Below, in pieces: positions 9,505 through 22,359 of a DNA stretch of 64,000 nt; positions within the stretch are counted from its first letter, which is position 1; each line of letters begins with the position of its first letter. The position numbers and the translations under genes are program-made. A model generated the notes under the pieces. That model did no database searches and was not told the origin of the DNA. It saw only the letters and a list, made by a program, of their open reading frames with translations. The stretch is from Candidatus Pelagisphaera phototrophica (GTDB lineage Bacteria > Verrucomicrobiota > Verrucomicrobiia > Opitutales > Opitutaceae), in NCBI RefSeq assembly GCF_014529625.1, contig NZ_CP076039.1, positions 3,348,001 to 3,412,000 of the forward strand. Reading direction: 5' to 3'.

Positions 9505-10161
9505 ATGGAGTCCCCATTACTAGTTCCTTCGATGCTGGCAGCCGACCATACCAGATTGGCGGAGGATATTGCTGCCATTGAAAGGCTCGGAATAAAGTGG
9601 CTTCATATCGACATTATGGACGGGCACTTCGTTCCGAATCTGTCTTTCGGGCCGCAAACCGTTGCGGACCTTCGACCGAAATCAAAACTGTTTTTCGATT
9701 TGCATCTTATGCTCGAGAATTCGCAAGAATATATTGAGGCGTTCATTTCTGCCGGAGCTGACCAAGTCTCTATTCACGTAGAGCCCAGCTACGATATTGG
9801 CGCAACAATTGAAAGAGTCCGAAGTCTAGGAGCGAAGCCTGGCATCGTTTTGAACCCAAGAACCGACGCTAGTCACATTCTCCCCTTTCTTCCTTCTGTC
9901 GACATTGTGCTCGCGATGACTGTTCAACCCGGATTCGGGGGACAATCTTTCGATGACAGTGTTCTCGAAAAGACCAAGCAAATCGATGCTTACCGGAGCG
10001 AACACTCCTTGAACTTCAGACTCGAAGTAGATGGAGGGATAAATCTTGATACGGCCCGAAAGTGCCGTAATCATGGCGTGGATACGTTTGTCGCTGGTTC
10101 CGCATTTTTCAAGTCCGACGATCAGACAAAATTTCTGCGTGAAATCGAGTCAATGCCCTAA
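9505..10161 (+). CDS. rpe: ribulose-phosphate 3-epimerase
   Basis: Interconverts ribulose 5-phosphate and xylulose 5-phosphate in the pentose phosphate pathway. The 218-residue TIM barrel shows the family motifs PSMLAADH, LHIDIMDGHFVPNLSFG (metal His and Asp), FDLHLMLEN, QVSIHVE, LAMTVQPGFGGQSF, LEVDGGIN and FVAGSAFFKS. It runs into hpt with only one base between its TAA and the hpt ATG, so the two are co-translated. Confidence 0.97.
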   Translation: MESPLLVPSMLAADHTRLAEDIAAIERLGIKWLHIDIMDGHFVPNLSFGPQTVADLRPKSKLFFDLHLMLENSQEYIEAFISAGADQVSIHVEPSYDIGATIERVRSLGAKPGIVLNPRTDASHILPFLPSVDIVLAMTVQPGFGGQSFDDSVLEKTKQIDAYRSEHSLNFRLEVDGGINLDTARKCRNHGVDTFVAGSAFFKSDDQTKFLREIESMP

Positions 10162-10162
10162 T

Positions 10163-10753
10163 ATGAAAATTTCGCAAAAAAAGCCTAGCTATGGACTCGC
10201 TGATTTAGAGTCCGTTTTACTATCCGAAACGCAAATTTCGAATCGTGTTTCGGAACTTGCAAAAGAAATTTTATCTCACTACGGCGACAAGGATATCACG
10301 ATAATTTGCGTGCTTAGCGGTGCCCTCGTTTTCACATCGGATCTTATTCGCAAACTCAAGCTTCCAACTCGACTAGATTGTCTTAGATCAGACAGCTACG
10401 GCAGTTCAACAAAGCCCGATGACCCTCCCCGCATATCAAGCCCGCTTAAAACTGACATTGAAAATCGACACGTGCTTCTGGTCGACGATATTCTGGATAC
10501 TGGAAACACCCTCTCGGAGCTTATAAAGCACTTGAGCCAATCGAAGCCCGCCTCTCTCAGAACCTGCGTACTTCTCGACAAAAAGGAACGACGCCAAGTG
10601 AAAATACAGGCGGACCATGTCGGGTTCAATGTTCCAGATGCCTTCGTTGTAGGCTACGGACTCGATTTCGCAGAGCGCTACCGGTCACTTCCGTGCATAG
10701 GCGTACTCAAACCTGAATTCCAAAAAGCATCTTATTTCCAGTGCGGATGTTAA
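10163..10753 (+). CDS. hpt: hypoxanthine phosphoribosyltransferase
   Basis: A purine salvage enzyme joining hypoxanthine or guanine to PRPP. The 196-residue protein has the PRPP-binding signature HVLLVDDILDTGNTL, the flexible-loop segment RSDSYGSS, the purine-contact LLDKKERR and VPDAFVVGYGLDFAERYR near the C-terminus. The ATG at 10163 is chosen because it follows the rpe stop by one base; a longer open frame starting at 10046 lies inside rpe and is not credible. A short cysteine-containing tail (SYFQCGC) ends the protein. Confidence 0.94.
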   Translation: MKISQKKPSYGLADLESVLLSETQISNRVSELAKEILSHYGDKDITIICVLSGALVFTSDLIRKLKLPTRLDCLRSDSYGSSTKPDDPPRISSPLKTDIENRHVLLVDDILDTGNTLSELIKHLSQSKPASLRTCVLLDKKERRQVKIQADHVGFNVPDAFVVGYGLDFAERYRSLPCIGVLKPEFQKASYFQCGC

Positions 10754-10810
10754 AGTCCATCTATTTCATGCTCTTGATTGGCTCGCCTAAGCACGCTTCG
10801 ATGTAAAGGA

Positions 10811-11683
10811 ATGATACTGGCTAAAACTTGGACAGACTACGAGATCCTCGAATGCGGTGAGGGCATGAAAAAGGAGCGCTGGGGTGACATCATTTTAGTC
10901 CGACCCGATCCCCAGATCATATGGCCCTTAAAATCGAAAGACTGGGGAGAGTTCGATGCCTTTTACCATCGTAGTAAAAAGGGCGGCGGAAACTGGGAAT
11001 ATCGTCGGAAGATCCCTCAATCGTGGAATATTCAATATGACAGCTGCACTTTCAAGATCAGGCCGACCGATTTTAAGCACACCGGCCTTTTCCCTGAGCA
11101 GGCAGTCAACTGGGACTGGTGTCGTTCGAAGATCAAACTTTCACAAGGCAGTCCCAAAATTCTAAATTTATTTGGCTACACGGGTGCGGCAACGATTTCA
11201 GCTGCTAGAGCAGGCGCTCAGGTTTGTCACGTGGATGCGGCGAAAGGAATGGTCGCCTGGTGTCGGGAAAACGCTTCATTCAGTGGGCTTCAAAACGCCC
11301 CTATTCGATTCATTGTCGACGACTGTGTTAAATTTGTTGAGCGAGAGATCCGCAGAGGAAGCCAATACGACGGAATTATTATGGACCCTCCATCATACGG
11401 CAGAGGCAGCAAGGGAGAGATATGGCAATTCGATCGCGACCTTTGGCAGCTTCTTCAAAGATGCCGCAAAATCCTGTCCGCTTCACCCCTATTTTTTCTC
11501 GTAAATGCGTACACTACGGGAATTTCTCCGACCATAGTCGGAAACCTGCTGAGAGAAGCTCTCTCGGATCTGAAAGGAAGTGTCACAAACGGCGAGATTG
11601 GTCTACCGATCGGTGATAGCCTGAATGCACTGCCTTGCGGCCTTTATGCCCGATGGGAATCCCAACATTTTTCGCAATTTTAA
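10811..11683 (+). CDS. class I SAM-dependent methyltransferase, RlmI-like
   Basis: A 290-residue Rossmann-fold methyltransferase of the COG1092 type (relatives modify 23S rRNA cytosines). The SAM site is LNLFGYTGAATISAA, with VCHVDAAKGMVAWCRENA for the ribose acid, VDDCVKFVEREI, and a catalytic MDPPSYGRG loop (DPPSYG as in RlmI/RlmKL). It lacks the N-terminal PUA domain of RlmI and has instead about 110 residues of beta-rich sequence (WPLKSKDWGEFDAFYHRSKKGG). The open frame extends to a TTG at 10778, but the ATG at 10811 is preferred. Target RNA is not deducible. Confidence 0.82.
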   Translation: MILAKTWTDYEILECGEGMKKERWGDIILVRPDPQIIWPLKSKDWGEFDAFYHRSKKGGGNWEYRRKIPQSWNIQYDSCTFKIRPTDFKHTGLFPEQAVNWDWCRSKIKLSQGSPKILNLFGYTGAATISAARAGAQVCHVDAAKGMVAWCRENASFSGLQNAPIRFIVDDCVKFVEREIRRGSQYDGIIMDPPSYGRGSKGEIWQFDRDLWQLLQRCRKILSASPLFFLVNAYTTGISPTIVGNLLREALSDLKGSVTNGEIGLPIGDSLNALPCGLYARWESQHFSQF

Positions 11684-11761
11684 CGCAAATCGAAGTGGTT
11701 AGACTTGAAATCGAGGGAGCATGGCCATATCCAAAACACACCCAATCGTAATTAATCTTAT

Positions 11762-12619
11762 ATGAAATTTAACGACTTCGTCGGGAGCAATTTTTTTTCT
11801 TTCTACAACGACATAGACTTCATTTCTTACCAAAAAGAAAAGAAGCGTCTGCAAGCAGAGCTTCTCAAGCTACAACATTGGGTCATCAAAAATAACAAGA
11901 GAGTGGCTCTCGTTTTTGAGGGTCGAGATGCCGCTGGAAAGGGAGGATCCATAAAGCGATTCACCGAGTACATGATGCCGAAGCATTTCAACGTAGTTGA
12001 ACTCGGTGTACCGACGCGCAAAGAATCGAAAAATTGGTTTCGACGATACGAAAAACACTTTCCCGCAGAAGGGGAAATCACTTTCTTCGACCGTTCCTGG
12101 TACAACCGCGCGCTTATCGAACCGACGATGGGCTATTGCACAAAGTCTCAGTACAAATACTTCATGAACAAAGTTCTGAAGTGGGAGGAATCTCAGATAG
12201 ACAATGGCTTAATCATGGTGAAAGTCTATTTGTCAGTATCCAAGCACACCCAGTCTTTTCGTTTCAAAGAGAGACAAGTCGACCCATTGAAGTACTGGAA
12301 ATACTCGGAGAACGACAAATATGCTCGAGAGTATTGGGATGTATTCACAAAATATAAAGAGCAGATGTTTCGCCGTGCTTCATCTGACAAGAGTCCTTGG
12401 GTGATTATCAACTCGAACAATAAATTGGAAACTAGGCTTAAGTCGATGCTCTATGTTCTATCTCAGATTCCGTACACCAGCAATTTCGATTATCGGCCTT
12501 TAAAAAAGGTAGACAAGCAACAGCGGTATTCAATAATTATAGACGGTATATCCTTCAAGAATCTAAACTACCGCCAATTTCTTCTACTAGAAACGCTACA
12601 CGGACTCGATAAGAAGTAA
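11762..12619 (+). CDS. ppk2: polyphosphate kinase 2
   Basis: A one-domain PPK2 of 285 residues that transfers phosphate between polyphosphate and nucleotides. It has the Walker A loop EGRDAAGKGG (about 53-62), the ITFFDRSWYNRALIEP Walker B region (107-121), the lid-like RFKERQVDPLKYWKYS and the C-terminal DKSPWVIINSNNK. Single-domain length fits class I or III PPK2; which nucleotide it prefers is not decidable here. It is the last core gene before the tRNA-Arg-associated element. Confidence 0.93.
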   Translation: MKFNDFVGSNFFSFYNDIDFISYQKEKKRLQAELLKLQHWVIKNNKRVALVFEGRDAAGKGGSIKRFTEYMMPKHFNVVELGVPTRKESKNWFRRYEKHFPAEGEITFFDRSWYNRALIEPTMGYCTKSQYKYFMNKVLKWEESQIDNGLIMVKVYLSVSKHTQSFRFKERQVDPLKYWKYSENDKYAREYWDVFTKYKEQMFRRASSDKSPWVIINSNNKLETRLKSMLYVLSQIPYTSNFDYRPLKKVDKQQRYSIIIDGISFKNLNYRQFLLLETLHGLDKK

Positions 12620-12734
12620 TTGCCTCTTAAGTACCGAGGTCGGTACATCCTACAACAAAAGCGCTTACCCAAGTCAACGGCGAGGCTCCACCTTCCCCTC
12701 ATTTTATTGGGGAATTCGGTTCTTCAAATCAATT

Positions 12735-12783
12735 AGCACGCTGAGAGGGAATCGAACCCCAACCTCCTGATCCGTAGTCAGGT
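12735..12783 (-). repeat. attL: displaced 3' half of tRNA-Arg
   Basis: The block 12757-12783 is identical over 27 bp to 16985-17011 inside the intact tRNA-Arg gene. Weaker similarity continues through the T arm and acceptor 3' strand to 12735. It contains the anticodon arm, T arm and acceptor end but no D arm or 5' acceptor strand, so it is not a functional tRNA. This is what remains when an element integrates at a tRNA anticodon arm and supplies a replacement 3' half. Confidence 0.85.
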
Positions 12784-12873
12784 CGTTTTGGTGATTAGAT
12801 AATTCTATAAGTATCTATTTATCAGCATCTAGCGTGTTATTTTTACTATTTTTATCTTTATCGATAAATTTAT

Positions 12874-12892
12874 GCTGCCCTATAACTGCCCT
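12874..12892 (+). repeat. candidate integrase arm-type site, left
   Basis: Two CTGCCC hexamers repeated in direct orientation with an 11-bp period (one helical turn), 90 bp inside the left core repeat. A 16/19 matching copy lies near the right end (16904-16922) in the same orientation. The layout suits arm sites bound by a tyrosine integrase or excisionase; the function is inferred. Confidence 0.45.
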
Positions 12893-13322
12893 ATTAGAAC
12901 TTCTAAGCAATGGAGTTAAGTGGCTGTGAGACGCCTGCTTTGTAACAGGGCAGACAGTCCTAATACCGCGAGGGGTCGCGGGGGCGGCGCGCATCGCAAT
13001 GTATATGCATAAATTAGCCCCAAAAAAAATTGTCCCTCAAAGGGCTTCGGAAGCTATTTTTATCCTAACCCTCGCCTCGCAGAAACTTGAGTAACCACCC
13101 CAGCTCCAAGAAGAGTTACTGTGATCCACAGACCCTCAGCTTGCGATAATCGCTTCAGTCTCGGGCTATTCTCCTGCCCTTAGCTTTCTCCAGAGTCGCA
13201 CCTTGCCCACTTTACCGATAGTGGACCTCCTTACGGGCAATCAGTTTTTACAATTGGAAGGCTAAAAAGATGGGCGGAAGTTTTTTATTGCGGGACGTCC
13301 TACGTCAGCATAGTTTGGTTCT

Positions 13323-13616
13323 ATGTCGCATATTATAGTGTTAGAAGGCAGCGTACCTGTGAACAAGCTGGAGGCCTGTGTTGAGCTTTTCGCTAAAAAT
13401 CGTTTAGAGGATACAAAAACTTACGATGGATGCCAAAGTTGCTTGGGCGCAGTAAACAAATCCGAATCAGTTATTACCCTCTGGTCGCAGTGGGAATCAG
13501 CAGAGCACTTTGACCGCTATATGGAATGGAGAACGGAAAGAGGCGATTTTGCAGAGGTTTTATCTTATTTCATCGGCGAGCCTAAAATCACAAGGTCTGA
13601 ACTCTTTTTTTCATAA
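13323..13616 (+). CDS. ABM-domain (putative quinol monooxygenase family) protein
   Basis: A 97-residue protein of the antibiotic-biosynthesis-monooxygenase ferredoxin-like fold. It has an N-terminal strand (HIIVLEGSVPVNK), a helix ending CVELFAKN, the central SVITLWSQWESAEHFDRYMEWR (strand, WES-x-E-HF-x-Y motif) and a C-terminal LSYFIGEPKITRSELF. Such proteins act on small aromatic substrates or have unknown roles, often as dimers. It is the only forward gene in the island and has no obvious Shine-Dalgarno sequence. The substrate is unknown. Confidence 0.65.
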   Translation: MSHIIVLEGSVPVNKLEACVELFAKNRLEDTKTYDGCQSCLGAVNKSESVITLWSQWESAEHFDRYMEWRTERGDFAEVLSYFIGEPKITRSELFFS

Positions 13617-13662
13617 AGCTACAAGAAGGCCAAAACACGTTACTGAGGGCAAAAAAACCTCC

Positions 13663-14629
13663 TTAACTCACCATTTCGGCAAGCCTTTTACGGATACGAC
13701 CATGCAAGAGCTTCCTCTTGGCGGAATGCTTTGCCTCATATAGAGACTCTCGCCTCTGCCGCTGGAGTTTCTGGTATTCTTGTTGAATCCATACATGGTT
13801 CTCCCACTTCTTGCCCCAACCAAAATCCTCATAGTCAGTCAGATCTTCCCATTCTTTAGGGAATCCATCTTTCATCTCTACGTTGTAGTGCTCTGTGAGA
13901 TTCTTAACTGCCTTCTTCTCCATCCCATCACGAGTCTTGGCTCTCTTTGCTACCTCTTTACCAGTAGCCTTTTCCCACTCATTCTTAATGGCTCCAACGA
14001 TGTCCCTGCATGCTCTACCCTGCATCTCAAAAGAAGCCTTTTTCTGGTCAGGAATTTTCTTAGCAATGAGTATCTATTCACGGATTACCTAAGCCTTTTT
14101 CCCACTGAATCTTGTTCTAGATTTGGCAGATCACTGATGGCATCTTTGACCTCTTGGCTGTGGTCTAAGTATTCTTTGTTGCTTGTGGTGATGGCTGACC
14201 CAGTCTTATTAATTCCCTCCCTCTATGCCCTGAACAGAGAGAAAATGGCATTTAGCTGAAAGGTTATAACGCTGTCCCCTCTAAACTGCTTCAGGTCCTT
14301 CCCCCACCCAAGCTCTGCTCTTAACCTGCCGCTCGTCTTTTACATAACCGATGCCATAGAACCACTGAGGAATCTAGGGATAGGCATAATGAAGCTGCTT
14401 CTAAAATGCTTTCTGGCTGCCTCAATGTCTATCCTGCATAATAGGTTAAACTACTGAAATAACAACAAGGACGCTTCACAAAATAACGAAAAACATCGGT
14501 TACGGATTTTAGACATTTGGCCTTCTTTGCCAAAACGGCATACGCTAGTGCAAGGTCATCTATGTTGTCGCTCAAGATCTTCTCTAGGGAATCTTTACCA
14601 CCCTTTTCCTGTTCGGGCTCATGAGGCAT
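13663..14629 (-). pseudogene. broken gene of about 320 codons, unknown function
   Basis: Reading 14629 to 13663, coding-like sequence continues across frames. It begins MPHEPEQEKGGKDSLEKI (open to a TAG at 14429-14431), shifts frame into DIEAARKHFRSSFIMPIPRF, meets in-frame stops after SMASVM and SLFRA, ends a segment at VGKRLR with another stop, then shifts again into IAKKIPDQKKASFEMQG and continues to 13663. The final 120-codon open frame is highly charged (EWEKATGKEVAKRAK, WEDLTDYEDFGWGKKWE). I recognise no family. Its ATG lies inside the last codons of the adjacent integrase remnant, so in the parent element it was translationally coupled to an integrase gene. Confidence 0.6.
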
Positions 14630-14687
14630 TTTGAAACTGAACCACCTTAGGTACTGTGATTCCTTCTGGATTCAGCGTAAGGCGTGC
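14619..14687 (-). pseudogene. integrase 3'-end remnant
   Basis: The minus-strand frame RLTLNPEGITVPKVVQFQNAS-stop closely matches the C-terminus of the intact integrase (KLSQSVPEGATVPEVVQFSNAS-stop at 15592). Only about 22 codons survive; a TGA precedes them. The nucleotide similarity continues to the shared ATGCCTCAT at the stop. Together with 15592-15655 it forms an imperfect direct repeat flanking the DUF6090-like gene. Confidence 0.75.
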
Positions 14688-14736
14688 TCACATCTACAAG
14701 ACTAACCAGATCACTGTATATTCTTCCAGATTTAGC

Positions 14737-15459
14737 TCAGCTGAGCTCTTCGTTAGAATAAATTTTTAAAACCCTGTACGATTCGTCAAGCTTATCAAGC
14801 ATGTCTAAATATCTCTCTACTAGACTCTTGAGCTGGTTTATATCGCCTAAAAACTCGTCTGAATTATAATATTCTCTATCAATCTTATAATAAGTCGGAG
14901 CAAGATCAGCGTATACATACCCTTCGACACTTTTTTCCTCTTTGGAAAATATAATAATTCTTTTATTAATTCTGGCTATTGCCCTAAAGAAGTAATCGTC
15001 TATAATTCTGCTAACCGCTAAATTTCTTTGATTTAAATTGCTATATGTATTCGATAAAGCATATCTAAAATTGTCAGATTTTATTAATCTTGTCGAACCA
15101 GTGCTTTTCAACTCATCGTATAAGCTACTCTGAGAAAAAAACGAGACAGATCCTCGTTCTGTGAGCAGTAAGACCTTTTCGGCTATTTCCTTATCAGTTA
15201 GTTTTTCTGCTTCTTGGGTAATGTCGAAAATTATATCATCCGCCGCGTTTCTGCACCTTACCTGTAAGGCATGAATATTTTTGATTTGCGATCTCTCATT
15301 ATCTATAATTTTTATTATATCCTTAACCAACTCATTCTTGTAAGAGGCATTGGATCTTTCGACCCTTATAGAATCGATATAAAAAGATAGTAAGACGCTT
15401 ATCAAAACAAATATTGACTGCAATATATGGCTCAAATTTGCCGCAAAAAACTTTTTCAT
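14737..15459 (-). CDS. DUF6090-like membrane protein
   Basis: A 240-residue protein with one N-terminal membrane helix (about 9-28, ILQSIFVLISVLLSFYI), then a Lys/Glu/Ile-rich helical domain with coiled-coil character. The central SLYDELKSTGSTRLIKSD followed by FRYALSNTYSNLNQR resembles the conserved core of DUF6090-type proteins, known mainly from Bacteroidota genomes; no function is established. The gene is clearly AT-rich (strings of tta, ata, aaa codons) unlike neighbours, indicating transfer. It is preceded by an AT-rich leader (15460-15591) containing TATAAA and a GGAC-4-GTCC hairpin, and flanked by two copies of the integrase 3' end. Confidence 0.7.
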   Translation of the reverse strand: MKKFFAANLSHILQSIFVLISVLLSFYIDSIRVERSNASYKNELVKDIIKIIDNERSQIKNIHALQVRCRNAADDIIFDITQEAEKLTDKEIAEKVLLLTERGSVSFFSQSSLYDELKSTGSTRLIKSDNFRYALSNTYSNLNQRNLAVSRIIDDYFFRAIARINKRIIIFSKEEKSVEGYVYADLAPTYYKIDREYYNSDEFLGDINQLKSLVERYLDMLDKLDESYRVLKIYSNEELS

Positions 15460-15591
15460 TTATTTAAAATTTTGATTGGGTTTTTTATTGTTTTTATACC
15501 GTTTATGGAAACGTTTAGGACCTATGTCCAGAGATTATTTATCGTCTCTAATGAAAGCTGCGAAAGTTTTGGATAGCTAGCTTTCTGACAC

Positions 15592-16902
15592 CTATGAGGC
15601 ATTTGAAAACTGAACTACCTCTGGCACTGTGGCTCCTTCTGGGACTGATTGCGAAAGCTTCTTAGGAGCATCGGCTTCAAAGTCAGGGTTCTCATAATGA
15701 TCTTTAAACGTCTTCACCGAGGTATGCCCCATCTCTTTCATGGTTCTATGCAGATTGGCATGATACTGGTATTGATAGGTCGCGTACGTGTGTCCAAGGA
15801 CATCGTGCCACCCTTTCAGCTTAGCCTCGGAACTAAACTTCTTGAGTAGTGATGAGTTCTTTTTTCCCCAACATATCGGACCTCCCCTTTCATCTTCTGG
15901 AACCGATTTTAACCATTGCACAAGGTTGGGTCCCACGCTCACCACTCTTTGCGAGCTTTCCTTTGCTTGCTCCCCTGAAACCTTTATCTGGGGATCTCGG
16001 TAAACGCCTTTCGGCTCAAGTGTTACACTATCCCAGTCCAATGGCCTCTTGTCCCTGTTTCCCTTAACTTCCGTGGGGCTTAAGCCAGCAAAGAGTCGGA
16101 TGGCTACACCCGCCCTAATTGAACTGAAACGATTTTCCTGAACCGCCTTATTGGTAAAGAGGAACTCCTTAATTGCAAGAATATCTCTCGTGCCTTTAGT
16201 GGATCTCTTAACTATCGGGCGGTCAGGGTCGCTCAGAGGGTTTGTGCTAATTAAACGCCTTGATTGAGCGTTGTTGAAAGCTGGTGAAACCTGCCTGTAC
16301 GCTCCGTTCCAAGCAGAGTCTGAAGTATTGTGGTATTTCTTCATCCATGCCCTTACGTCTTCAGAGGTTATCTCATCTATGAGCTTTCCTCCGAAGATAT
16401 GGAGAAACCCTTGTTCAGCTACCCTGTCTTCTTTCGAGGCCTTAGCATGTGGGAGCGGCCCCAGTATAATAGCCTTCCACTCCCCAGCGTGGCTGGTCGT
16501 CCACTTTTTTCTGTTCTTCTCCTCATATAAGTTCTTTCTCTGCCTGAGAGATATGCGAAAAACTTCTGAGAAGGTTTTTGAAGCCTCTGCCTTTTCTAAG
16601 TGGTCTAAGTAAAAGCTTGCAGCGGCATTTAGCGTAAGCTCATGTTCACCGCTTAGATGGTGACTGTTGAGTCTATTGATGGCGGTTCTCGCATCGCTAC
16701 TCTCGCTTGCCATGAAACGAGTCCTTTTTGACCCAAGCTTGTTTATATGGGACTTTATCCTTCGGACTTCCACCTCCGTTTTGGCTTCAGATGGAAAGAA
16801 TATACGCCTACGCTTTCCTGTGTTTGAATGGGCAGTTGGGATACGAAACCGCCAATTACCACCTTCTGTTTTTACAGGCTTTAGTTTTGCTATCCTCGGC
16901 AT
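15592..16902 (-). CDS. tyrosine recombinase/integrase, catalytic arginines substituted
   Basis: A 436-residue phage-type integrase. A beta-rich arm-binding N-terminus (IAKLKPVKTEGGNWRFRIPT) is followed by a helical core-binding domain (about 85-210) and the catalytic domain. The beta-hairpin Lys (EQAK, Lys314), the late His (MGH, His392) and the nucleophile in DHYENP (Tyr403) are present. The box I Arg position reads AGLSPTEV (Ser275, codon AGC) and the box II Arg position reads VLGHTYAT (Gly370, codon GGA). Each is one base from an Arg codon. The frame is otherwise intact. The ATG at 16900-16902 is directly next to the CTGCCC pair, suggesting autoregulation. It probably integrated the element at the adjacent tRNA-Arg but may no longer be active. 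Confidence 0.88.
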   Translation of the reverse strand: MPRIAKLKPVKTEGGNWRFRIPTAHSNTGKRRRIFFPSEAKTEVEVRRIKSHINKLGSKRTRFMASESSDARTAINRLNSHHLSGEHELTLNAAASFYLDHLEKAEASKTFSEVFRISLRQRKNLYEEKNRKKWTTSHAGEWKAIILGPLPHAKASKEDRVAEQGFLHIFGGKLIDEITSEDVRAWMKKYHNTSDSAWNGAYRQVSPAFNNAQSRRLISTNPLSDPDRPIVKRSTKGTRDILAIKEFLFTNKAVQENRFSSIRAGVAIRLFAGLSPTEVKGNRDKRPLDWDSVTLEPKGVYRDPQIKVSGEQAKESSQRVVSVGPNLVQWLKSVPEDERGGPICWGKKNSSLLKKFSSEAKLKGWHDVLGHTYATYQYQYHANLHRTMKEMGHTSVKTFKDHYENPDFEADAPKKLSQSVPEGATVPEVVQFSNAS

Positions 16903-16903
16903 C

Positions 16904-16922
16904 GCTGCCCCTAAACTGCCCT
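16904..16922 (+). repeat. candidate integrase arm-type site, right
   Basis: CTGCCC repeated with an 11-bp period, 16 of 19 bases identical to 12874-12892 and in the same orientation. It lies between the integrase start and the tRNA, 62 bp inside the right core repeat. It could serve both as an arm site and as an operator for the integrase. Confidence 0.45.
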
Positions 16923-16960
16923 TAAAACACTGATTGTTTGCACTTTATCAGTGATTCCGG

Positions 16961-17037
16961 TGGCACGCGGCGAGGGAGTCGAACCCCCAACCTCCTGATC
17001 CGTAGTCAGGTGCTCTATCCAATTGAGCTAGCCGCGC
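16961..17037 (-). tRNA. tRNA-Arg (anticodon ACG)
   Basis: A complete cloverleaf on the minus strand. The 7-bp acceptor stem has a G-U first pair, then D arm GCTC...GAGC, anticodon stem CCTGA/TCAGG around loop CTACGGA (anticodon ACG, A34 expected to become inosine), T arm GGGGG-TTCGACT-CCCTC, discriminator G and an encoded CCA at 16963-16961. It reads CGU/CGC/CGA codons. The anticodon arm is the attachment site of the adjacent element, and the 3' half was probably supplied by it. Confidence 0.95.
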
Positions 17038-17247
17038 AGACCATCAAGACTGCCATAGACAGTCGAAGGGCCAGGAGAAAAGAATCAATAGTTGCGCATT
17101 TCAAGGCATTTTTTCCTAAAAACGGAAATGCCTGAAAATCAGTGCCCATTAGTCCGAGCTCGTAGACAACGCTCCGGATAACGTATAAAAAAGCGTCCCA
17201 AAGGATGCCTTGCCCTGAGCCGCCGATGAAAATGGAAATTTTGAATA

Positions 17248-17616
17248 TCAGACTTTCGGAAGATTAGCTGGAATGTCGACCCCGTGAGTGTCCTTGCGTT
17301 TCACAAGCCTTAATCGAGAGCGGCGCCTTAACATGCGGTCCAGCTTGTCAACCAGAAGATCGATCGCCTTGTGGCAATCCGCGTCGTGCACCGAAACATT
17401 CATAGACGGGCCATTAATCTCAATATGCCCCTTGGCGGTAAACTCATGCTCTTTCCCGCCTTTAGTATGATCGCACTCCAACTCCACTTTGACTCTGATT
17501 ATTCTCTCCTCATGCCTAAAAAGTCGCTCCACTTTATCTTTGACGCCCTGCTTCAGAGATTCCGTCAAGTCCATGTGAATGCCAGTAATGATCAGATCGT
17601 GGTTGTTGGCTTGCAT
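17248..17616 (-). CDS. hpf: ribosome hibernation promoting factor (short HPF type)
   Basis: A 122-residue protein of the HPF/YfiA family that binds the 30S decoding channel and helps form inactive ribosome dimers in slow growth. The N-terminal LIITGIHMDLTESLKQGVKDKVERLFRHEERI and the strand motif AKGHIEINGPSMNVSVHDADCHKAIDLLVDKLDRMLRR are typical. An open frame extends 12 codons upstream to 17652, but an AAAGGAGT Shine-Dalgarno (about 17625-17632) placed 9 bases before the ATG at 17616 fixes the start. The length shows the short form, lacking the C-terminal dimerisation domain of long HPF. Confidence 0.92.
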   Translation of the reverse strand: MQANNHDLIITGIHMDLTESLKQGVKDKVERLFRHEERIIRVKVELECDHTKGGKEHEFTAKGHIEINGPSMNVSVHDADCHKAIDLLVDKLDRMLRRRSRLRLVKRKDTHGVDIPANLPKV

Positions 17617-17644
17617 ATGTATATTACTCCTTTGTGTTGGTGCT

Positions 17645-17788
17645 TTATTCAATGATCCCAGGCCCGATAACGTACCGAAAGACCTCTAGATTCAGCGTTC
17701 CCTCGTCTACTTCACGGTTCACTTCTGGGATTTCAAATTCAATCATTGGACGATCATCAGAGATAGGACGAACAGGCGGATTTTGCAA
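17645..17788 (-). CDS. possible small protein upstream of hpf
   Basis: A frame ending MIEFEIPEVNREVDEGTLNLEVFRYVIGPGIIE with coding-like composition lies directly before hpf, 28 bp from its start. The best start is a TTG at 17788 with a GGAG five bases upstream (47 residues). The open frame continues upstream to a possible ATT at 17854 (69 residues, including one Cys), without an ATG or GTG. I do not recognise it. It could be a co-transcribed small protein or the tail of a gene whose 5' part is lost. Confidence 0.35.
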   Translation of the reverse strand: MQNPPVRPISDDRPMIEFEIPEVNREVDEGTLNLEVFRYVIGPGIIE

Positions 17789-17892
17789 TCTTTCTCCGAC
17801 CGGTACCCATTCTTTTTTATCGACGAAAACAGGACATTTCTTGAGATATCCAATCCTTTCAATTCAGACAAACTCCAGCCTCGAAATACCAT

Positions 17893-18681
17893 ATGCCAAT
17901 TACTGAATGGGGCTGGGAAGTCACGGAAGCCGAACTCCGCTCTTGGATCATTCAGGATGACAACGACATCATATTGATCAACAAACCGGCATTGGTCGTC
18001 TGCCATCCCTCCAAGCGAGGACCTTGGTCTTCGTTGGTCGGAGCGTGCAGAGAGTGCCTAGGCTACGATAGAACCCATCTGATCGCTCGGCTAGATAGGG
18101 AAACGAGCGGAATCATCCTGCTAGCAAAGCATCGACTCGCTGCCCGGCACTTTCAAATGGCACTAGAAAGACGGGCAGTGGCAAAGAGCTATCTCGCAAT
18201 TCTAGAAGGTTCCCTCACAGAAGCAAGAGAGGTTGACGCAGCAATTGGGAAGGATCCGGACAGTATCATCCATTGCAAGTCAGCGGTCCGAACGAACGGA
18301 AAAAAGCAGGCTGCCCAAACTCGATTCAAACCCATTCATTCCGCATCAGACTACACCCTCGCCCAAGTTGAGCCCCTTACCGGTCGAAAACACCAAATTC
18401 GTGTTCACTCTCAACATATTGGTCATTCGATAGTGGGAGATAAACTCTATGGACCCGACGAAACCTTTTTCCTCGATTTCATAGAATCAGGATGGACCGA
18501 AAAACTCGCTGGCACACTGCTCATGAACCGCCAGGCCCTCCACGCTTTCAAGATGACGTTCGACTTGGAATCCGGACCGAGATCTTTTTCCGCCCCTCCT
18601 ACCGAAGACTTTGTACAGTTTTGCGAGAACCACTTGAATCTCCCTAAATCGGATCTCCTTAAATTGATTTCCTCATCATAA
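17893..18681 (+). CDS. RluA-family pseudouridine synthase
   Basis: A 262-residue RNA pseudouridine synthase with the catalytic motif LIARLDRETSGIILLAKH (Asp in RLDRETSG), the FQMALERRAVAKSYLAILEG segment and GRKHQIRVHSQHIGHSIVGDKLYG. There is no S4 domain at the N-terminus, as in RluA or TruC-type enzymes. It modifies uridines in rRNA or tRNA; the exact site cannot be inferred. It is divergent from hpf and followed by a 12-bp palindrome. Confidence 0.92.
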   Translation: MPITEWGWEVTEAELRSWIIQDDNDIILINKPALVVCHPSKRGPWSSLVGACRECLGYDRTHLIARLDRETSGIILLAKHRLAARHFQMALERRAVAKSYLAILEGSLTEAREVDAAIGKDPDSIIHCKSAVRTNGKKQAAQTRFKPIHSASDYTLAQVEPLTGRKHQIRVHSQHIGHSIVGDKLYGPDETFFLDFIESGWTEKLAGTLLMNRQALHAFKMTFDLESGPRSFSAPPTEDFVQFCENHLNLPKSDLLKLISSS

Positions 18682-18722
18682 TCCGCCAGCAGTCTAGTCC
18701 TTTCCCTTGTGCGTAAATAAAA

Positions 18723-18734
18723 CGCTAATTAGCG
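18723..18734. repeat. 12-bp perfect palindrome
   Basis: CGCTAATTAGCG between the pseudouridine synthase and a 38-codon membrane-protein frame. There is no loop and no T tract, so it is more like a protein-binding site than a terminator. Confidence 0.3.
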
Positions 18735-18770
18735 CTTTCTTTACGGAATCGGTTGAGGTATGACTAATCC

Positions 18771-18887
18771 ATGAGATTCAGCGCTACTGCAATCGTTTCA
18801 ATGATGGTCTTTTCAATTTTCATTTGGACCTACGTCATCAATACAGCTTGGAAAGTTGCTCGTGAGATAATGGCATTTATCTTCTAA
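18771..18887 (+). CDS. 38-residue single-span membrane protein
   Basis: A small open frame MRFSATAIVSMMVFSIFIWT... ending VAREIMAFIF. One hydrophobic helix covers about residues 5-25, followed by a short amphipathic tail. GAGG lies 12 bases upstream, a slightly long spacing. No family recognised; it could be a small regulatory membrane protein. It stands alone between the pseudouridine synthase and the MFS gene. Confidence 0.45.
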   Translation: MRFSATAIVSMMVFSIFIWTYVINTAWKVAREIMAFIF

Positions 18888-19053
18888 AAATTTTTTCTTC
18901 CAGTAGGTTAAATTCATCCTGAGGAGATGGGGCGATCCACCACGATCGATTGATAGCCACCAAAACTCCTCCCAACAGGGCTCAGTCGAATATGTCACAG
19001 AAGGCGAGTTTTCCTTTTGCTAGGCCTACTCAAGTCGGATTGTCTCCCGATTT

Positions 19054-20445
19054 GTGAGCAAAAAGCCAGATACCAGCGTACTGAAACTCCCCAATATTCG
19101 TCGTTTCATTGCCTTCCGTATTTTCTTCAATGCTCGATTTTACTATCCGATATTCACCATTCTCTTCCTGGATTTCGGCCTCACACTAGAGCAATTCGCT
19201 ATTCTTAACGCGGCATGGGCCGCTACCATCGTCCTACTTGAGGTTCCCTCCGGAGCTTTGGCGGACACAGTTGGGCGACGCAACCTCGTTATCGCCTCAG
19301 CAGGCATAATGATTGTTGAGATGGCCCTACTCTGTCTGGCGCCAATCGGTCAAATGCCGATAGTGTTCTACCTTTTTCTAATCAATCGCATACTGAGTGG
19401 TGCCGCCGAAGCGTCCGCTAGCGGAGCCGACGAAGCCCTTGCCTACGACACGTTGAAAGACCTGGGGCTTGAGAGGAGTTGGGGGAAAGTATTGGAGACG
19501 CAAATGCGTTTCCAATCGATCGCCTTCATTGTGGCCATGTCCGTTGGAGCGTTGCTTTACGATGCCGAACGCCTCAACCAAATTTTTACCGCTCTGTCTT
19601 TTGATATAGAGGTTTCTAAAGCATTCGCCATACGGATTCCTCTCATACTGACCCTGTTGCTCGGAATAGGTGCCCTTATCACAGCATTAGGTCTAAAGGA
19701 GCCGAATTCTGAGAAGGTCGCTCGCCGTGAAGCCCGCCAGGAGGACTGGTTCGCTACGATTAAGGAGGCGTTCGCAAAGACACTAGATACGGGTAAATGG
19801 ATTCTAAATACCCCAGTCGCCATGATGATCATTCTGGGCGGATTCTTAATCGATCACATTGCTCGAATGATTCTCACCCTAAACAGCGAGTACTACCGGC
19901 GAATCGAATTGCCGGAAGCGAGTTTCGGGATTATCGGCGCCGGATTTGGATTAATGGGACTGTTCACACCCAGGCTGGGTAGGTGGCTCTCTGAAAACAG
20001 GAGCAAAACGTTCAATTTCTCGCTTATAGGAATCGTTACGTTTTTTGGTCTTCTTGGTATGACGCATTTCGTTCCCTATTGGGGAGTCGCCCCAATGATT
20101 TTAATTTACGGACCTATTGGATTAACCGGCTTTCTCATTAGCGCCTATATGAATGCGGAAACGCCATCGAGCGCCAGAGCGACGGCACTGAGTTTCAAAG
20201 GTCTTTCCTACAACTTAGCTTATGGTGGGATCGGTCTCATTTATTCGCTCCTGGTGTATAATTTACGCAGAACGGAATCGATGCAGGCTGTTCCTCCAGA
20301 GCACGTAGAAGCGGAACTCTTCAAATCCGCCCTGAGTTACTTCCCAAGCTACTTCGTAGTCGCATTCGTGCTCGTACTGCTATTCGGCCTAATCAACCGG
20401 CACTCGATCGACACTTCACCTTTGAAAAAGGACGACTCAACTTAA
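19054..20445 (+). CDS. MFS transporter
   Basis: A 463-residue major facilitator with about 12 hydrophobic segments. Motif A between helices 2 and 3 reads SGALADTVGRRNLV (G-x-L-a-D-x-x-G-R-R), and a long cytoplasmic loop between the two halves (about residues 215-240) is charged (KEPNSEKVARREARQED). The start is a GTG at 19054 without a clear Shine-Dalgarno sequence. The substrate is unknown. It is convergent with glnB, sharing the region with that gene's terminator. Confidence 0.85.
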   Translation: MSKKPDTSVLKLPNIRRFIAFRIFFNARFYYPIFTILFLDFGLTLEQFAILNAAWAATIVLLEVPSGALADTVGRRNLVIASAGIMIVEMALLCLAPIGQMPIVFYLFLINRILSGAAEASASGADEALAYDTLKDLGLERSWGKVLETQMRFQSIAFIVAMSVGALLYDAERLNQIFTALSFDIEVSKAFAIRIPLILTLLLGIGALITALGLKEPNSEKVARREARQEDWFATIKEAFAKTLDTGKWILNTPVAMMIILGGFLIDHIARMILTLNSEYYRRIELPEASFGIIGAGFGLMGLFTPRLGRWLSENRSKTFNFSLIGIVTFFGLLGMTHFVPYWGVAPMILIYGPIGLTGFLISAYMNAETPSSARATALSFKGLSYNLAYGGIGLIYSLLVYNLRRTESMQAVPPEHVEAELFKSALSYFPSYFVVAFVLVLLFGLINRHSIDTSPLKKDDST

Positions 20446-20482
20446 CCCAAAACCATAGGGATCGCTGGATTCGCTCTTCAAC

Positions 20483-20513
20483 AAAAAAGCCGGCCCTCAA
20501 AAGAGAGCCGGCT
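20483..20513 (-). terminator. factor-independent terminator after glnB
   Basis: Inverted repeat AGCCGGC/GCCGGCT (20488-20494, 20507-20513), extended by CTC/GAG around an AAAA loop. On the minus strand it is followed by a six-T tract. Confidence 0.85.
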
Positions 20514-20543
20514 CGAAAATGATGAAAGACTGAACAGGGCCTA

Positions 20544-20924
<381 letters not shown>

Positions 20925-20976
20925 TTACCTAAATGCAAGTTAATGTGTCACTTGGCTTAGACAAGCGTTTTATCTA

Positions 20977-22359
20977 CTAAGAATTGGTGTTATAGGCCTC
21001 CTGCCCATGCTCAGAGATGTCAAGTCCCTCGGTTTCCTCTTCTTCTGATACTCTCACGCCCATGATGGCCTTGATGATTCCAAATATGGCAAAAGAGAAA
21101 ACAAAGGCGAATATGTAGACTCCTATCACACCAATGATTTGAGACATCAAATTTGCTCCTCCGAAGATCGCTACAGCAACCGTACCCCAAATGCCACAAA
21201 CACCGTGAACAGAAATCGCTCCAACAGGATCGTCGATCTTGATTTTGTCGAAGAAAATAATCGCAAATACCACGATTACACCACCAACAGCACCCATGAT
21301 GATTGACGAAACGACGGATACCGAATCCGCACCTGCAGTGATACTAACCAATCCCGCCAGAAGACCATTCAAAGCCATTGATAGGTCTGGCTTCTTGAGT
21401 ACAGCCCAGGATGTCATGATAGCAGCGATACCTCCAGCAGCGGCTGCTAGTGCGGTCGTCGTAAAGACCAGCCCCAATGGACCTGGGTTTGCAGACAGGA
21501 CCGAGCCACCGTTGAATCCAAACCATCCGAAAAAGAGTAGGAATACGCCCACAGCTGCCAGAGGCATGCTGTGACCCAAAATCGGCTTGACCGTGCCATC
21601 ATCACTGTACTTCCCCTTGCGAGGGCCAAGAATCATAACAGCTGCGAGAGCGGCTGCCCCACCAAATCCATGTACCACTGTCGAACCTGCGAAATCATAG
21701 AATCCGGCTTCGCCTCCACCTAATTGCGAGAGCCAGCCTCCACCCCAGTGCCATGAACCTGCAATCGTATACCCGAAAGCTACCAGAATCGTAGAGTATA
21801 TCATAAATGCCGAGAGCTTCACCCGTTCTGCAACCGCACCCGAGACAATAGTTGCCGCAGTGGCCGCAAACATCGCCTGAAAAATGAAGTCACCATAACC
21901 GGTCATAGCGAGGCCCAAACCTCCGTATCCCCAGGTGCCTCCACCGTCGGCGTTAAGATCTCCGATCATGGATCCTATGCTGATCCAACCGTTGAAGTCT
22001 CCGGGGTAATGGGTGTTAAATCCCACTACTGCGTACGTGATCAACCCGATCGAAATTATCCATACATTCTTAAAGAGTATATTTACAGTGTTTTTCGATT
22101 GGGTCAGTCCCGCTTCCAGCGTGGCAAATCCAAGGTGCATGAGGAAGACCAGCGCCGCAGCGATTACCGTCCAAAGCATCGAAACAGTGAAGAAGTCGAA
22201 TGCAGGTGCATACTCGGCTCCAACTGACTCGACAAGCTCTAGATAATCGTCGACAGGACCCGCTTCTTCTTGTGCCAAGGCTGGCGTTAAACCCGCCATC
22301 ATTGCTGTTATCAGAGCAAACAGCAAAGGTCCGGGGAGTTTTATGAGAAGTTTTGTCAT
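20977..22359 (-). CDS. amt: ammonium transporter
   Basis: A 460-residue Amt/Mep/Rh channel with a cleavable N-terminal signal sequence (about residues 1-29, ending ALA-QEE) and about 11 membrane helices. The first twin-His is in GSTVVHGFGGAAAL and the second in SVHGVCGIWGTVAVAIFG. The FQAMFAATAATIVSGAVAER segment is family-typical. The cytoplasmic C-terminus (GVRVSEEEETEGLDISEHG) is the PII/Amt-gating region. It is first in an amt-glnB operon, whose expression is expected to respond to nitrogen limitation. I see no sigma54 site upstream. Confidence 0.96.
   Translation of the reverse strand: MTKLLIKLPGPLLFALITAMMAGLTPALAQEEAGPVDDYLELVESVGAEYAPAFDFFTVSMLWTVIAAALVFLMHLGFATLEAGLTQSKNTVNILFKNVWIISIGLITYAVVGFNTHYPGDFNGWISIGSMIGDLNADGGGTWGYGGLGLAMTGYGDFIFQAMFAATAATIVSGAVAERVKLSAFMIYSTILVAFGYTIAGSWHWGGGWLSQLGGGEAGFYDFAGSTVVHGFGGAAALAAVMILGPRKGKYSDDGTVKPILGHSMPLAAVGVFLLFFGWFGFNGGSVLSANPGPLGLVFTTTALAAAAGGIAAIMTSWAVLKKPDLSMALNGLLAGLVSITAGADSVSVVSSIIMGAVGGVIVVFAIIFFDKIKIDDPVGAISVHGVCGIWGTVAVAIFGGANLMSQIIGVIGVYIFAFVFSFAIFGIIKAIMGVRVSEEEETEGLDISEHGQEAYNTNS

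Follow-up and report, generated by a model that had tools for sequence, protein, structure and literature searches.

Among the tRNA islands collected in Islander, 2083 of 3919 use the anticodon subsite and 3760 of 3919 have a 3' fragment of the tRNA gene (PMC4383910). We analyzed a window of 64,000 nucleotides from Candidatus Pelagisphaera phototrophica (contig NZ_CP076039.1, positions 3,348,001 to 3,412,000; positions below are those of the window), in which a 4,228-bp segment at a tRNA-Arg(ACG) gene belongs to a well-known kind of tRNA island, the anticodon-arm class, and is an islet with a tyrosine integrase. Like Islander islands, the islet has a whole tRNA gene and, farther downstream and equally oriented, a displaced fragment of its 3' part, with a tyrosine integrase between the two, and it exceeds 2 kb in length. 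It differs in being small (4.2 kb relative to Islander length peaks at 13.6 and 39.9 kbp; PMC4383910) and in that its integrase lacks both catalytic arginines. That loss is the unusual point of the islet, which is otherwise an ordinary genomic island. Taken as a whole, the segment is very likely an immobilized, composite relic island in tRNA-Arg that has one or two living genes.

The ends of the islet are marked by a direct repeat. As the original prediction stated, a 27-bp block is identical at 12757–12783 and, in the same orientation, at 16985–17011 within the intact tRNA-Arg(ACG) gene (16961–17037, minus strand; ARAGORN, and Rfam RF00005 at 62.8 bits), where the repeat search places this core from the anticodon arm to the start of the T stem; the copies are spaced 4,228 bp apart. 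Allowing up to three mismatches, the block has just two matches in the 64 kb and none in 100 shuffles of the window. Allowing up to two, it occurs at two places in the 4.09-Mb single-contig genome and therefore is not a dispersed repeat, the possibility raised beforehand as a ground for doubt. Beyond the core, the left copy does continue as a decayed tRNA 3' part: relative to the intact tRNA of genome G003, the match extends over 49 bp at 92% (45 identities, three mismatches, and one gap), and repeat and alignment together place the displaced original 3' part of the gene, attR, at 12736–12783 (minus strand). In the intact tRNA (attL), the 5' half is the host's and the 3' half was supplied by the element. 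The tRNA of the window is identical to that of G003 at 77 of 77 positions, and the spacers differ at 12 of 115 positions (plus one gap) on the left and at 10 of 210 on the right; the rebuilt tRNA is therefore conserved, and the displaced copy drifts like the spacers.

The site is empty in relatives. In contig C150 of G003, which at this locus is the nearest relative within the genus, the ppk2 side (window 10405–12783, 94%) meets the tRNA and hpf side (16961–22000, 95%) through one intact tRNA, and the two alignments overlap by 51 bp, which is the 3' part of the tRNA. This is the junction foretold in the original prediction and, with the repeats, it fixes the ends of the proposed ∼4.2-kb element at the anticodon arm. 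Across the 10 other genomes of the genus, five are empty, G003 at base level and four (G002, G004, G008, and G010) by gene order, with ppk2, tRNA, and hpf in succession and no insert. Genome G007 is also insert-free, but its left neighbors are different, and the site was not found in G001 and G005. Had both repeat copies belonged to the core genome, relatives should have shown the pair; none of 56 other related genomes has two copies on one contig, and G049 has two on separate contigs, with one and two mismatches. The features by which an Islander island is recognized, namely a complete tRNA with a correctly placed and oriented fragment, an integrase inside the interval, and an uninterrupted site in relatives, were all found. 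The segment could alternatively be part of the normal core genome in which a fragment of the tRNA was duplicated, with no element involved, a reading for which its small size alone speaks. The empty site refutes this reading, to which we assign next to no probability: five genus members are without the segment at the same place, and the integrase leader and arm motif described below are common to other tRNA-linked relics.

We propose that a tyrosine-integrase islet entered tRNA-Arg(ACG) by recombination at the anticodon-arm core. Its attachment site, attP, brought along a second version of the 3' half of the gene, such that integration rebuilt a full tRNA and displaced the host's own 3' half to the opposite end of the islet, where it is drifting, as the empty site and the order of the flanks show. 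Nor is this the only element to have used the gene in the genus. The tRNA-Arg of G009 is accompanied by the element leader, an apparent decayed integrase start, and then other DNA, a scar that a related element left in this tRNA. The locus thereby offers a base-accurate case of how small tRNA islets may arise, stack, and die, with one site empty, occupied, and scarred in a single Verrucomicrobiota genus. In G006, both flanks are present and a run of ∼325 N lies inside the anticodon arm of the tRNA (L057 8178–8502), perhaps an assembly gap at a site occupied in some cells. A group I intron was considered for this gene and dropped, as the apparent split is the N run and Rfam gave no match.

The predicted integrase next to the tRNA is a tyrosine-recombinase-type open reading frame (ORF) of 436 aa at 15592–16902 (minus strand; PHROG_1, 1.1e-14); its frame is open and its start is 58 bp off the tRNA 3' end. 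It has no match in Pfam or NCBIfam. Among its relatives, matches to Pfam Phage_integrase exceed the cut-off in one case and fall short of it in three, and the profile of the family matches XerD at 2.3e-22. Foldseek matches of its predicted model (pLDDT 88.3) include Tn1549 Int and lambda Int. Relatives occur in 26 of the 56 other related genomes, in 165 stretches of genome contigs (80 of which were kept), in 31 IMG/VR loci, and in three Akkermansia phages, and none were found in plasmids. Integrases of the Akkermansia phages Chantilly, Moulinsart, and Chambord are of the same tyrosine-integrase family and 22–32% identical to that of the islet, and those of the Opitutales metagenome-assembled genomes UBA7389 and EAC85 are 37–41% identical; the best relative is only 41% identical. 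The relatives in our census keep both arginines, whereas the integrase of the islet does not, and the islet is without a convincing phage structural gene.

Two repeats in the islet look like arm-type sites of the integrase. One putative site, GGGCAGTTTAGGGGCAG, lies beside the integrase start at 16904–16922 (minus strand; repeat D8), and a second, found by repeat and pattern search, lies at the far end in the same orientation (12874–12892, minus strand). The pattern built from both, GGGCAGTTNNAGGG, occurs twice in the window relative to 0.23 expected, and three of 100 shuffles reach two. The motif is also ahead of related integrase starts in loci L063, L066, L067, and L110, and partially in L111. 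In the islet, the integrase gene directly follows the tRNA and each end bears an arm-type repeat, to which the protein is predicted to bind. The leader is incomplete in the window: it is missing ∼67 bp that are preserved, in one form or another, in the G009 scar and in L066, L110, and L111 (the sequence of L067 starts too far in for this stretch to be seen).

The integrase has lost both catalytic arginines. Ser275 (AGC; codon 16078–16080, minus strand) stands at the ArgI position and Gly370 (GGA; codon 15793–15795, minus strand) at ArgII. We compared these with a census in which 128 loci contributed one ORF apiece (19 loci in related genomes and 109 from genome contigs and IMG/VR), giving 123 distinct proteins; L119 and L120 were left out, as each is a copy of a locus already among the 19. 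The ArgI column holds Arg in 122 of 122 relatives (one of the 123 proteins is truncated there) and the ArgII column in 123 of 123. Part of the search for the loci from genome contigs and IMG/VR used a Box II pattern in which either R or G was permitted; the census was therefore not forced to R. In a profile alignment with XerD, the two columns pair with the Arg of Box I and the Arg of 'VLRH', which we take to be its catalytic arginines. Of the residues that characterize an active tyrosine recombinase, the Lys, second His/Trp, and nucleophile Tyr are present (K314, H393, and Y403, found as K in 119, H in 107, and Y in 123 of 123 relatives), and Arg-I and Arg-II are not. When Cre or Flp is deprived of one arginine by mutation, its action on normal DNA is blocked or strongly compromised (PMC4499138). 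Because both catalytic arginines and ∼67 bp of the leader are gone, excision by the 436-aa integrase is, judged from its sequence, unlikely. The open integrase would thus most likely have ceased to excise the element, and the islet is probably immobile.

The 436-aa protein could instead be a working integrase with relocated arginines, as in IntDOT (whose residue at the ArgI position is presumably Ser), and the islet could be mobile; we consider this improbable. In the integrase of CTnDOT, which likewise has no Arg at this position, ArgI is replaced and another arginine serves, as given in the part of PMC8138268 consulted. Close to the ArgI position, the window integrase carries additional arginines, R263 (a column with R in 16 of 123 relatives) and R269 (in 0 of 123), and its open frame, Lys314, His393, and Tyr403 also favor function. 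But it has lost ArgII as well, an arginine invariant in the census, in addition to the leader stretch, and the IntDOT case published in that part of PMC8138268 is one of a shifted ArgI and not of ArgII. Furthermore, IntDOT belongs to another family and another host phylum.

The pattern of loss raises a further alternative, that the integrase has turned into a DNA-binding protein, a repressor or an occupant of att sites. MrpR of prophage SPbeta lost catalytic residues and became a repressor, and has V/S at ArgI and V/R at ArgII with Lys and Tyr kept (PMC10516654); given this precedent, retention as a DNA-binding protein is possible. The islet integrase has in common with MrpR and SroF the fold, the loss of catalytic arginine(s), and the kept Lys and Tyr. 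Across 16 columns conserved at ≥90%, it departs at two, exactly the two catalytic arginines, a coincidence with odds of 1 in 120 for random hits. The phi3T repressor SroF is also among its Foldseek matches (rank 35, E 7.6e-3). True integrases and Xer recombinases outrank SroF, however, placing the islet protein nearer to them in fold and leaving a repressor role as a candidate only. Among the 123 relatives, 90 depart at none of the 16 columns, 20 at one, four at two, six at three, and three at six; with two or more departures in 13 of 123, two of 16 fits plain decay. A single change is already enough to inactivate the enzyme, and selection therefore does not account for both losses either; with the closest relative just 41% identical, none is near enough for comparison. 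We therefore regard conversion to a DNA-binding protein as quite unlikely, slightly more so than a working integrase. By analogy, an arginine-less integrase could be retained on its own arm or core sites, repressing the leader or barring other elements from the tRNA, a role to which we give similarly low odds. Nevertheless, an integrase minus two catalytic arginines that keeps its other strongly conserved columns is a candidate for conversion to a regulator, and if this reading is true, it would represent an integrase-to-regulator conversion independent of the SPbeta group.

The content behind the integrase is consistent with the preferred explanation, a composite relic. The 3' end of a second integrase remains at 14621–14669 (PEGITVPKVVQFQNAS, minus strand; repeat D1, 84% over 49 bp; tblastn, 81% over 16 aa) and is followed by one or more broken genes identified by tblastn (13663–14629, minus strand), within which 14271–14429 is a relative of the gene adjoining the G001 integrase (E 4.6e-10; the 53-aa match is at 43% and contains an in-frame stop). 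Because a second integrase tail and a broken partner gene lie behind the open integrase, the islet is, as far as sequence can tell, composite and decaying. The simplest origin of this content would be a second element that stacked at the same tRNA and was then partly deleted. Alternatively, and with a probability that we place clearly below that of stacking, a single element may have received an insertion of 973 bp where the integrase gene ends, with a 49-bp duplication. The 49-bp direct repeat, 84% identical, bounds a segment with a 240-aa ORF, and this segment is the most AT-rich part. For a target duplication, however, one would not expect the copies to differ by as much as 16%, and the remnant resembles the diverged tail of an integrase with its partner gene behind it, as in G001. 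The 240-aa ORF (14737–15459, minus strand) has a hydrophobic N-terminal stretch, seen by eye. It has no sound family match in Pfam, PHROGs, or NCBIfam (a tail family at 0.064 is at noise level), no solved structure better than E 0.24, and no relative in the 56 related genomes, 386 other genomes of the phylum (some shared), plasmids, phages, or IMG/VR. No transfer, replication, or virion gene was found at a sound score among five islet ORFs compared with Pfam and four with PHROGs and NCBIfam; the best structural match was 0.064. The description of the cargo as foreign-looking holds in part: GC content has its minimum of 0.33–0.35 at ∼14.7–15.6 kb and elsewhere in the islet is close to flank values. 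Beyond the original prediction, the integrase is probably dead, the content is probably composite debris, and the same tRNA was used in G009 by a related element.

One gene in the islet appears to be alive. An ABM-like protein (antibiotic biosynthesis monooxygenase family) of 97 aa is encoded at 13323–13616 (plus strand; Pfam ABM 0.023, below the curated cut-off) and has a relative in G006 (0.0014, likewise below the cut-off). The two genes differ at 35 of 291 bases, 24 at third positions, with nonsynonymous divergence (dN) of 0.047, synonymous divergence (dS) of 0.573, and dN/dS of ∼0.08; G006 relative to G001 gives dN 0.048 and dS 0.687. At the level of codons, this shows purifying selection on the ABM-like gene, the best candidate for living cargo, which selection is keeping. 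In core genes, dS between the window genome and G006 is 0.16–0.21 in four cases, 0.42 in rpe, and 0.68 in amt. The dS of the ABM-like gene relative to that of core genes therefore suggests separate acquisition by the window genome and G006. In G006, the gene is in a ∼2.35-kb insertion bounded by tRNA-Ser(GGA) on one side and, on the other, by a 20-bp repeat of the 3' end of that tRNA (19 of 20; L108 7563–7652 to 9995–10014); in this insertion no recognizable integrase was found; G003 and G005 are uninterrupted at this site. The islet and the G006 insertion both hold the gene, which is thus carried by two tRNA-bound insertions.

Several observations weigh against the relic explanation or parts of it. 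G003 may have lost the islet by precise excision, as opposed to a late gain in the window genome. The frame of the integrase is still open, which weighs weakly against decay: simulated random substitution at 4% left the frame stop-free in 11% of trials and at 10% in <1% (indels not counted), and dS between the window genome and G003 is 0.04–0.10 for four genes and 0.48 for amt. Given this short branch and the 11% at 4%, an open frame is weak evidence for retention. The composite origin is drawn from a 49-bp match and one homologous broken gene, and neither inspection by eye (14670–14740) nor the repeat search revealed a remnant of an att site separating the two integrase parts. The ABM-like gene compared with the G001 fragment (45 codons) gives a weaker signal of selection (dN 0.057 and dS 0.124). 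Lastly, not all integrase relatives sit at a tRNA. Beyond the window, they occur at four places in the same genome. Broken copies adjoin tRNA-Gly(GCC) and tRNA-Thr(TGT) with the same leader (L110 8892–8967 and 8166–8549; L111 7044–7119 and 7223–7459), but the broken copies at L112 and L113 have no tRNA in the 15–16 kb taken, nor do the integrases of G001 (L066) and G003 (contig C210, L114) in the stretches scanned. Targeting of tRNA genes is therefore frequent but not universal.

Two further repeats were seen around these genes. The partner gene of the G001 integrase (L066 7019–7487) has its start within the integrase stop, and at its other end is a repeat; in L107, this repeat adjoins a transposase ORF, which we assume to be IS3-like. 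The repeat was taken to be an insertion sequence end, since the transposase ORF adjoins its copy there. The second repeat is in the islet. DNA matches identify 12972–13123 (minus strand) as what is left of a gene of the VPDTGST...ARRRLG type, its coding tail in degenerate form together with the 3' flank. It is a dispersed repeat present at 22 places in the window genome, this one included, at 67–93% DNA identity. An integron-like cassette array was considered for this stretch and set aside, as the repeat is mostly the coding tail and 3' flank of such proteins: at the 21 other loci, 12 have an ORF that ends in a VPDTGST...ARRRLG-like tail (three of these ORFs are each seen from two loci), two have another tail, and seven have no ORF. 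The conserved stretch continues past the stop codon, and the tail is presumably VPDSG-CTERM.

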